This document shows positions 47,909-50,901 of a stretch of 64,000 nt of DNA, one piece after another. Numbering within the stretch: the first letter of the stretch is position 1; the number at the start of each line of letters is the position of its first letter. The notes under the pieces are model-generated. The model ran no database searches, was not told where the DNA came from, and worked only from the letters and a program-made list of their open reading frames with translations. The position numbers and the translations under genes are program-made. The stretch lies in contig NZ_CP100445.1 in NCBI RefSeq assembly GCF_024227435.1, forward strand, positions 2,105,369 to 2,169,368, read 5' to 3'. This DNA is from Natrinema caseinilyticum. GTDB taxonomy: Archaea > Halobacteriota > Halobacteria > Halobacteriales > Natrialbaceae.

Positions 47909-50164
47909 ATGTCATTGGAGGATACTATCCCAGATCGACTCAGAGAAACGTACAGTGCGAAGATAGGGCTTATTTTCGTGGTGGTCGTCGTGACGACGGT
48001 TCTCGTCGCCGCGCTCTTTTTCACCTACGTCTCCAACACGGTGGGACCGGCCACGGAAGAACGGTTCATCGACGGAACTGACGACCGGAGCGACGTCGCA
48101 GCAGCCTGGCTCGAAACGAACGCGGAGACGGCGTCGGGACTCGCCACCGATGCGACCATCGAAGGGGGGACGAGCGGGGAAATCAACGAACGGCTCGCGA
48201 CGGCACAGTCCGATCGGGGGGATCGGATCGCCGAAGTTCACTATCTCGACAGCGACGGAGCCGTCTTTGCGAGTAGCGGGGAGGGCGCGAACGGCCAGAA
48301 TTTCTTCGAGCAGACCGGTATCGACGGCGAAACCGACGGTCCGAGCGGCTCCCACCAGGGGCTGACGACCAACGAAACGGTCCTCTCGTTCGTCAGCAGC
48401 GTCGAACGCTCCGATGGAAGTCTGCGATACGTGGCCGTCTCAGTTCCCGCCGACAGGTTCGCGTCTCTCCTTCAGACGGACGAATCTAGCCGAACGATCG
48501 TCACGAACGCTGACGGCGAATCGGTCGCGGCGGTCGGCGAGGAAGCAGCGGTCGGCGACGACGCGGTCCTGGCGGCAATCTCGCCGAGTTCGGACGACTT
48601 CGCTACCGGCGTCCCCGACGGGACCGACACGGAGTACGCGGCGACGTCGGCGACGATCGACGTCGGCGACAGTTCGTTTACGGTCACGACGTACGATACC
48701 GCGGCGACAGTCTACGGGCCACAAAACGCCGCTTCGTCGGCGTTGCTCGGCTTGCTGTTTATCTTCGTCCTCCACCTCGGGCTCGTCGGAATCGTCCTCG
48801 GCGGCAACATCTCCCTGAACCTTCGCCGGCTCGCGAACAAAGCCGAACGAATGGGGGACGGTGATCTCACGGTCGACCTCGAGACCGACCGGGTCGACGA
48901 AGTGGGAATCCTCTACAGATCGTTCGCGACGATGCGGGACTCGCTCAAGACGACGCTCGACGATCTGGAAGAGCAACGCGAACGCGCACGCGATGCCCAG
49001 CAACAAACCGAACAGCACAATGACGAACTCGTGGCCGAAGCCGAACGGTACAGCGAAGTCATGTCGGCGTGTGCCGACGGTGACCTCGAGCGCCGTCTCG
49101 AGTCCGAAACGGACCACGATGCGATGGTGTCGATCGCCCGGGCGTTCAACGAGATGATCGCGGACCTCGAGAAGGCGGTCGCACAGGTCAAATCGATCTC
49201 GGCGGACGTCGCCAGGACGAGCACCGAGGTTCAGACCAGTTCCGACGAGATTCGGCGGGCGAGCGCGGAGGTTACCACGTCGGTCCAGGAGATTTCGAAC
49301 GGGTCCGCCAAACAGGCGGAGGATCTGTCCGTTGCGACGACGGAAGTCAAAGAGATGTCCGCGACGGTCGAGGAGGTCGCCGCCGCGACGAGCAACATCG
49401 CCAAGCAGTCCAACCAGGTCGACGAACTGGCGGCGGACGGCCAGCAGGCGGCCGAGGAAACGACGATGGAAATGCACACGGCGAGCGAACAGACGGAGGC
49501 CGTCGCGGAGACGATCCGCGCGCTGGACGAGGAAGCGGACCAGATCCAGGAGATCGTCGAACTGATCGACGAGATCGCCGGCCAGACCAATATGCTCGCG
49601 TTGAACGCGGCCATCGAGTCATCGCGAACGCAAAGTGCTTCGAACGACGGCGGCGGTTTCCAGGCCGTCGCCGACGAGGTCAAAGAACTCGCAACACAGA
49701 CGCAAGCGGCGGTCGAGGACGTCGAAACCATGATCGAATCGATACAACAGCGGGCGGCGAAAAGCGCGGCGCAGATCGAGGAAGCCGAAACGGTGATCGG
49801 ATCGGCAACCGACGGGGTCGACGATCTCTCGCGAAAACTCGACCGGATCGCGACAGAAATCGAGCAGGTGGCTGCGGGGGTCGAAGAGATCGATCAGGCG
49901 ACCGACGAACAGGCCGGGTCCGCCGAAGAGTTGGCGACGATCGTTCAGAACGTCGCGAGCGTCGCCGACGAGACGACCTCGCAGGCACAGCAGGTCGCCG
50001 CGGCCGCCGAGGAGACGACCGCGACGATCAGCGACGTCTCGACCGAAGCGACGCGCCTCGACGATCGAGCGACGGATCTCGCGAATGCCGTCGACGAGTT
50101 CACCGTCTCGGAGTCGCCGGCCGATCCGACGAACGCGGCCGTCTGGGACGGTGATTCGCGATGA
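47909..50164 (+). CDS. Halobacterial transducer (methyl-accepting, Htr-like)
   Basis: The protein has 751 residues. It has TM1 at about 19-41, an extracellular sensory domain of about 230 residues (42-275, Cache-like, with IAEVHYLDSDGAVFASSGEG) and TM2 at about 276-300 ending GIVLGGN. Two HAMP-like segments follow (about 301-350 and 385-435), then a long methyl-accepting signalling domain with the hairpin tip EIAGQTNMLALNAAIESS, which contacts CheA/CheW, and several Glu/Gln methylation-type pairs. The stop overlaps the next gene by 4 nt. The gene order transducer then opsin matches htrI-sopI and htrII-sopII. The large extracellular domain recalls Halobacterium HtrII, a combined light and amino-acid sensor. 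Confidence 0.9.
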   Translation: MSLEDTIPDRLRETYSAKIGLIFVVVVVTTVLVAALFFTYVSNTVGPATEERFIDGTDDRSDVAAAWLETNAETASGLATDATIEGGTSGEINERLATAQSDRGDRIAEVHYLDSDGAVFASSGEGANGQNFFEQTGIDGETDGPSGSHQGLTTNETVLSFVSSVERSDGSLRYVAVSVPADRFASLLQTDESSRTIVTNADGESVAAVGEEAAVGDDAVLAAISPSSDDFATGVPDGTDTEYAATSATIDVGDSSFTVTTYDTAATVYGPQNAASSALLGLLFIFVLHLGLVGIVLGGNISLNLRRLANKAERMGDGDLTVDLETDRVDEVGILYRSFATMRDSLKTTLDDLEEQRERARDAQQQTEQHNDELVAEAERYSEVMSACADGDLERRLESETDHDAMVSIARAFNEMIADLEKAVAQVKSISADVARTSTEVQTSSDEIRRASAEVTTSVQEISNGSAKQAEDLSVATTEVKEMSATVEEVAAATSNIAKQSNQVDELAADGQQAAEETTMEMHTASEQTEAVAETIRALDEEADQIQEIVELIDEIAGQTNMLALNAAIESSRTQSASNDGGGFQAVADEVKELATQTQAAVEDVETMIESIQQRAAKSAAQIEEAETVIGSATDGVDDLSRKLDRIATEIEQVAAGVEEIDQATDEQAGSAEELATIVQNVASVADETTSQAQQVAAAAEETTATISDVSTEATRLDDRATDLANAVDEFTVSESPADPTNAAVWDGDSR

Positions 50165-50901
50165 TTCCCCCGGAAACGCTCTACCGGATCATGTTCTACG
50201 CGATGGCGGTGGCTGCCGGGTTCTTCCTGGTCTGGATCTCGCGGTTACCCCAGGAAAAGCGCCGATACTACCTCATCATCCCGATCATCTGCGGGATAAC
50301 GTCCCTCGCGTACTTCAGCATGTCAACGCAACAGTTTTTCGTGACGAACCCGACCGGCCAACCGGTTCAGGTGGGTCGCTACATCGAATACTTCACCGTG
50401 GGACCGATGATGGTGACCATCACGTGCATGGTCGCCGGCGCATCGCGCCGGCAGTTGATCGCCACCAACGCCGTCATGGTGTCGTGGACGAGCGCCACGG
50501 TCGCCGGCTACTTCCTCACGGAACCGGCGGTGTACGCGGCGAATATCGCCAATTTCGCGCTCCTGGGCTTGCTCGCGTATATTCTGGTCTGGCCGATCAC
50601 GCGCCAATCCGGCAAACAGGGCGGCGAGCGCGTCCTGCTCTACGGGAAACTGCGAAACCTGCTGTTGATACTCTTTGGCGGCTACCTCGTCCTCGGCCTC
50701 CTGTCGCGACAGGGATTCGGACTGCTCGACGCATTCAGCGGAATCTTCCTCGGGATCTACCTCGACGCCCTCACTCGAATCGGATTCGGCGTGCTGGTGT
50801 TCCGGGCGACCGACGCGACCGACCAACTGATCGCCGAGATCGGATCGGACGACGCGGGTGACGGCGGGGTCACCCTCGAGAAGGGCGACCCGGCCGACTG
50901 A
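50161..50901 (+). CDS. Sensory-rhodopsin-like protein lacking the retinal lysine
   Basis: The 246-residue seven-helix protein is homologous end to end to sensory rhodopsin II (RRYYL, then YIEYFTVGPM in helix C, KLRNLLLIL in helix F, YLDALTRIGFG in helix G). Aligned with the N. pharaonis protein, Lys205 is Arg206 (codon CGA at 50776-50778), Asp75 is Glu76, Trp76 is Tyr77, Trp171 is Phe and Trp178 is Gly. Tyr174, Tyr199, Asp201 and Thr204, used for structure and transducer signalling, are kept (175, 200, 202, 205), as is Arg72 (Arg73). No lysine falls in any predicted helix. It starts inside the transducer's last codons. The family is certain. Retinal binding looks impossible by the normal Schiff base. 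Confidence 0.88.
   Translation: MIPPETLYRIMFYAMAVAAGFFLVWISRLPQEKRRYYLIIPIICGITSLAYFSMSTQQFFVTNPTGQPVQVGRYIEYFTVGPMMVTITCMVAGASRRQLIATNAVMVSWTSATVAGYFLTEPAVYAANIANFALLGLLAYILVWPITRQSGKQGGERVLLYGKLRNLLLILFGGYLVLGLLSRQGFGLLDAFSGIFLGIYLDALTRIGFGVLVFRATDATDQLIAEIGSDDAGDGGVTLEKGDPAD

Follow-up and report, generated by a model that had tools for sequence, protein, structure and literature searches.

The window analysed here, a stretch of 64,000 nucleotides from Natrinema caseinilyticum, contains a two-gene unit in which a transducer gene lies directly upstream of an opsin gene, with the stop codon of the transducer overlapping the start codon of the opsin (ATGA). The two genes and their main features are as follows.

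47909..50164, plus strand: cognate HtrII-type transducer, 751 aa (HAMP 4.6e-17, MCPsignal 5.1e-32)
48041..48712, plus strand: extracellular domain of the transducer, approximately residues 45-268, predicted dCache fold (AlphaFold2 and Foldseek)
48722..48949, plus strand: second membrane segment (TM2) and HAMP of the transducer, aligned to 2f95_B and 5jjn_B without gaps
49427..49963, plus strand: MCP signalling domain of the transducer, residues 507-685 (Pfam MCPsignal)
50161..50901, plus strand: type 1 opsin of 246 aa with seven helices and no retinal lysine, an opsin-related protein (Pfam Bac_rhodopsin 6e-21)
50386..50388, plus strand: Glu76 at the counter-ion/proton-acceptor position (D75 of sensory rhodopsin II, SRII), acidic in 23/23 clade members (18 Asp, 5 Glu)
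50764..50766, plus strand: Asp202, invariant within the clade, at the site of the second counter-ion (SRII D201)
50776..50778, plus strand: Arg206, codon CGA, at the position of the Schiff-base lysine (SRII K205) by alignment, Arg in 23/23 clade members

The opsin has the seven-helix Bac_rhodopsin domain of the microbial (type 1) rhodopsin fold family and is nearest to SRII both in sequence and in predicted fold. Its AlphaFold2 model had a mean pLDDT of 95, and the best Foldseek matches were crystal structures of SRII and of SRII/HtrII. The original prediction held that the retinal lysine of this protein is replaced with Arg206. The helix-G string on which it relied, YLDALTRIGFG, was found to match the translation of the open reading frame exactly, and in an alignment that was gap-free across helices F and G, K205 of N. 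pharaonis SRII fell on Arg206. The opsin lacks the helix-G Schiff-base lysine of a functional SRII and also its pocket aromatics, since W76, W171 and W178 of SRII correspond to Tyr77, Phe172 and Gly179, the three tryptophan changes that had been predicted. The assignment of Glu76 to the proton-acceptor Asp was likewise borne out by alignment with SRII D75. The claim that no other helix contains a lysine needed correction: lysines 33, 152 and 241 lie in loops or the tail, and Lys163 lies within predicted helix F. This sole helix lysine is at the cytoplasmic end, outside the pocket; the possibility of another lysine taking over was therefore rejected, and none can stand in for the missing one. 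The missing lysine together with the rewritten pocket indicates loss of covalent retinal binding, as had been proposed, and we infer that no retinal is bound in the window opsin itself.

The transducer consists of TM1, an extracellular dCache-like domain, TM2, HAMP and an MCP signalling domain. Its TM1 and TM2-HAMP segments align with crystallised NpHtrII, and together with the position beside a sensory opsin this makes it an HtrII-type transducer. Gly83 of NpHtrII corresponds to a GG pair, and with the numbering set by the G83F mutant of 5jjn, Asn74 of NpHtrII was matched to His289; every Natrinema member has His at this site, and those of the clade's other two genera have Asn. AlphaFold2 predicted the fold of the extracellular domain with good confidence, and Foldseek gave dCache matches to KinD, CtaA, PctA and Tlp3 (E 1e-8 to 1e-9). 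On its predicted fold the transducer has the double-Cache extracellular domain of dCache chemoreceptors, and by sequence no Pfam Cache match was found for this domain at E 0.001. The transducer was directly upstream of the opsin, with overlapping frames, in the window and in all 21 orthologous neighbourhoods fetched, and every window-clade transducer examined has an extracellular domain of about 230 residues. The window genome also encodes CheW, seven MCPs and an archaellin. A large extracellular domain was seen also in the transducer of a Lys-bearing sensory rhodopsin (L075), so this combination of an opsin and an extracellular sensor occurs on the photoactive side as well.

Lysine-less haloarchaeal "opsin-related proteins" (ORPs), including Arg-bearing ones linked to HAMP/MCP transducers, have been described (Becker et al. 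2016, PMC4915679). The window opsin belongs to a clade of 23 proteins, with 14 further Natrinema orthologues (53-88% identity to the window opsin) and eight members from two other genera, Haloterrigena and one more; Haloterrigena salina JCM 13891 is the source of one of the proteins. Arg was present at the lysine site in 23/23 members through three codons (CGG, CGA and CGC). With Arg in 22 orthologues as well, the replacement is beyond chance; from the codon of the window gene it had been argued that a single sequencing error cannot account for it. Among the closest pairs in the clade dN/dS was 0.10-0.48 (about 0.1-0.5), and as judged from the coding sequences the clade is under purifying selection. 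The close relatives are thus neither Lys-bearing nor under relaxed selection, either of which would have spoken against the original prediction. In a tree of 84 opsins, a 100/99 branch split the 66 lysine-less proteins from the 18 Lys-bearing ones and the window clade (n=23) was a 100/100 group, apart from the group A (100/99) and group B ORPs of Becker et al.; the tree did not resolve the order of its deep branches, and with long branches in this region deep placements call for caution. The window opsin is in this sense a haloarchaeal ORP, a lysine-less opsin homologue in a clade apart from the Lys-type proteins.

Some lysine-less opsins had other residues at this site. Four with His (L103, L109, L110 and L111, one of them from Halorientalis salina) had the reversed gene order, the opsin coming first and the transducer, which has a large extracellular domain, second. 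Two further lysine-less opsins of archaeon QS_1_68_20, L019 and L049, have Val and Thr, respectively; beside L049 lies a transducer resembling that of the window (48% across its full length), and L019 has none nearby. The frames of L019 and of another homologue, L064, were unusually long (466 aa) and fusion-like at first sight, and we think that this length reflects extension from stop to stop in GC-rich DNA rather than fusion.

We compared across the groups the 19 positions that we take, on the basis of bacteriorhodopsin structures, to hold retinal in Lys-type opsins. Five changes, namely W76Y, V108W, P175L, W178G and K205R (SRII numbering), were each present in 23/23 window-clade members, and F127 was replaced with Asn, Gly or Thr in most of them. 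Within the window clade the pocket positions varied less than the rest of the helices (0.59 vs 1.02 bits, permutation p 0.004), a modest statistic that depends on this choice of positions. Group B had no comparable constraint at the 19 former pocket positions. Trp109, at the SRII 108 position, seems to plug the site of the retinal ring in combination with the Gly at 178. Three separate fillings of the empty retinal cavity are suggested by such changes: V108W in the window clade, T80Y with G112Y in group A and T80W in most of group B.

The charged residues of the former Schiff-base region varied together between the groups. An acid at SRII position 75 was found with Arg at 205 in 23/23 members of the window clade; group A carries its acid one position further on, at 76 (21/21), and in group B both were lost, with Gly at 75 and Leu, Phe or Met at 205 (24/24). 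This fits an Arg-acid pair replacing the protonated Schiff base and its counter-ion, and as it comes from few independent lineages the correlation is a pattern and not a test. The SRII residues R72, Y174, Y199 and D201 were invariant in the window clade and T204 was kept in 20/23 members, whereas Y174 and T204 were lost in groups A and B. In SRII the hydrogen bonds T204-Y174 and Y199-Asn74 of HtrII are reported to matter for signalling or binding, and helices F and G with the FG loop between them form the face that binds HtrII (PMC3274258). These same parts, plus helix B, were the most conserved of the window-clade opsins. Loss of the lysine, a conserved and rewritten pocket and an invariant transducer partner can all be read from the sequences themselves.

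Next we considered the distribution of the pair and of retinal supply in 29 Natrinema genomes. The opsin and the orthologous transducer occurred together in 15 genomes and both were absent from 14, in which the best transducer matches were just about 25-38% identical. The retinal-forming enzyme Brp/Blh was found in 19/19 genomes with a Lys-type rhodopsin and in 0/10 others; two of the 29 had neither an opsin nor Brp/Blh. In eight of the 15 opsin-bearing genomes the Arg opsin was the only opsin and Brp/Blh was absent. The Arg opsin thus persists, as far as gene content tells, in genomes without the retinal-forming enzyme, and as the eight genomes take two separate places on the gene tree, this persistence probably was not a single event. 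Species that have ORPs only have been reported to lack crtY and brp (Becker et al. 2016, PMC4915679), and the eight genomes repeat this pattern for the window clade. However, a missing Brp/Blh does not prove that retinal is missing, as a bacterium without a known retinal gene still makes working rhodopsins (PMC7734400). The window genome itself has Brp/Blh, clustered with a bacteriorhodopsin and a second pump-like opsin, probably a halorhodopsin (G000:C1:2022256-2026066, outside the window), so that retinal is available there.

Taken together, the window pair is probably a chemotaxis receptor complex derived from SRII/HtrII, in which the opsin serves as a retinal-independent seven-transmembrane (7TM) partner, either sensory or structural. 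The opsin would sit as a retinal-free subunit on TM1 and TM2 of the transducer via helices F and G in an SRII-like manner, and a physical complex of the two proteins is what this arrangement implies. The permanently charged Arg206, facing Glu/Asp76 and Asp202, would replace the lysine-retinal Schiff base and could pair with them in a buried, fixed salt bridge that preserves the charge pattern, with Trp109 apparently filling the site of the retinal ring. As to the nature of the stimulus to the pair, which we infer, the dCache domain of the transducer would be the likely sensor, with signals passing to CheW/CheA and the archaellum. The opsin may provide a second input if its ion pair changes, without photochemistry, in response to pH, membrane state, an ion or a small ligand.

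Within such a retinal-independent partnership, we regard a sensory and a structural role of the opsin as about equally likely. It is quite conceivable that the opsin senses nothing and is a structural subunit only, kept because the membrane segments of the transducer have come to depend on it for their folding, their stability or their packing in the array, with the dCache domain as the sole sensor. Conservation is highest where the opsin faces the transducer, in helices F and G and the loop that joins them, which agrees with this, as do the seeming filling of the ring site by Trp109 and the dCache fold, which gives the transducer a likely ligand site of its own; the HtrII of Halobacterium, too, is also a serine chemoreceptor (PMC3274258). 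However, pocket positions in helices C-E alone, which lie away from the transducer, were likewise conserved above the level around them (0.82 vs 1.34 bits, p 0.02), and the relay residues R72, Y174 and T204 are kept, though possibly for folding. Moreover, adjacent transducers in groups A and B lack a large extracellular domain, and there the opsin is the only obvious sensor. The opsin itself may instead sense a stimulus other than light, as a chemosensory 7TM subunit comparable to a GPCR, its core rebuilt from Arg206, Glu/Asp76, Asp202 and Trp109, in which case the transducer would have two independent inputs, dCache outside and the opsin in the membrane; this we put forward tentatively.

Continued light sensing by means of a non-covalently held retinal or another chromophore is improbable. 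It would accord with the retention of W171 or Phe, Y174, R72, the acid at D75 and D201, with the retinal-forming enzyme of the window genome and with the finding that lysine-less opsins can work, at reduced efficiency, when retinylidene amines are added (PMC4915679). Yet the ring-site residues have been replaced and the site is apparently filled (V108W, F127 to Asn, Gly or Thr, W178G and P175L), the gene is under selection in eight species without Brp/Blh or another opsin, and two related ORPs that were expressed with retinal gave no absorption peak at 480-580 nm (PMC4915679). A decaying pseudogene or a sequencing error, which the loss of the very residue that defines the canonical function might suggest, is ruled out by Arg in 23/23 orthologues, reading frames open throughout, dN/dS below 1 and the conserved overlap with the transducer.

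The role of opsins without retinal has been a standing question since haloarchaeal ORPs were described. The window clade makes this question testable, as its two-gene operon always occurs together and eight Natrinema species have the Arg opsin as their sole opsin and no known retinal-forming enzyme, so that an opsin phenotype in these species could not be confused with that of another rhodopsin. If the opsin senses another stimulus, it would be a light-receptor scaffold turned chemoreceptor, a prokaryotic parallel to GPCR diversity.

Earlier work (PMC4915679) has already described lysine-less haloarchaeal opsins, their linkage to transducers and the Arg type, and has reported for two of the proteins that retinal is not bound. 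The open-access literature searched yielded no account of the window clade as a type of its own, of its transducer with a dCache domain, of the exceptionless co-occurrence of opsin and transducer, or of the eight Natrinema species that keep the Arg opsin as their sole opsin and lack Brp/Blh. The group A ORPs of Becker et al. (2016), found in Halorubrum and others, come closest, as they also have Arg at the lysine site and an adjacent HAMP/MCP transducer gene, transducer first, and are in one lysine-less clade with the window protein. However, group A has W76D, R72Q, Y174L, W178A and T204L, whereas the window clade keeps R72, the acid at 75, Y174 and T204 and has W76Y, V108W and W178G. Of the group A signature W76D, Y174L, W178A and M108, none was found in the window clade, in which Y76, Y174, G178 and W108 are present in 23/23. 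The group A transducers are NpHtrII-like, with HAMP near residue 75-150 and without a large extracellular domain, in contrast to the domain of about 230 residues in the window clade. The differences in signature residues, transducer architecture and tree placement speak against simple membership in group A, although a joint Arg clade of the two was not rejected (AU p 0.26). One group-A-like Arg opsin (L089, G136:C1:2559000-2568000) had no transducer gene within the 9 kb fetched.

Group B ORPs resemble the window clade in being lysine-less and often transducer-linked, with Tyr at W76 and mostly Gly at W178. They differ in having Leu, Phe or Met at the lysine site, Gly at D75 and Leu or Met at Y174, where the window opsin has Arg at the lysine site and Tyr at 174, and in directly adjacent transducers that lack a large extracellular domain. 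In four group B cassettes (L082, L083, L106 and L112) a single short transducer stands between two different lysine-less opsins, an arrangement that looks as though the two opsins shared it.

The window pair shares with NpSRII/NpHtrII the gene order and overlap, as in Lys-type loci, the fold, the TM1/TM2/HAMP parts of the transducer, the interface residue Tyr199 and the relay residues, and differs in the absence of the Schiff-base lysine, the rebuilt pocket and the dCache domain between TM1 and TM2. HsHtrII of Halobacterium salinarum is both a sensory-opsin transducer and a serine chemoreceptor (PMC3274258), and is comparable in that respect; its partner is a true retinal photoreceptor, unlike the window opsin. 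The Rh-noK proteins of algae and bacteria and the fungal ORPs (PMC7714340) have, like the window opsin, a microbial-rhodopsin fold without the retinal lysine, but are not described as partners of HtrII-type transducers, and the lysine losses outside haloarchaea were judged separate by Becker et al. (PMC4915679). The window clade is a distinct branch of the known lysine-less ORPs, with a different receptor partner.
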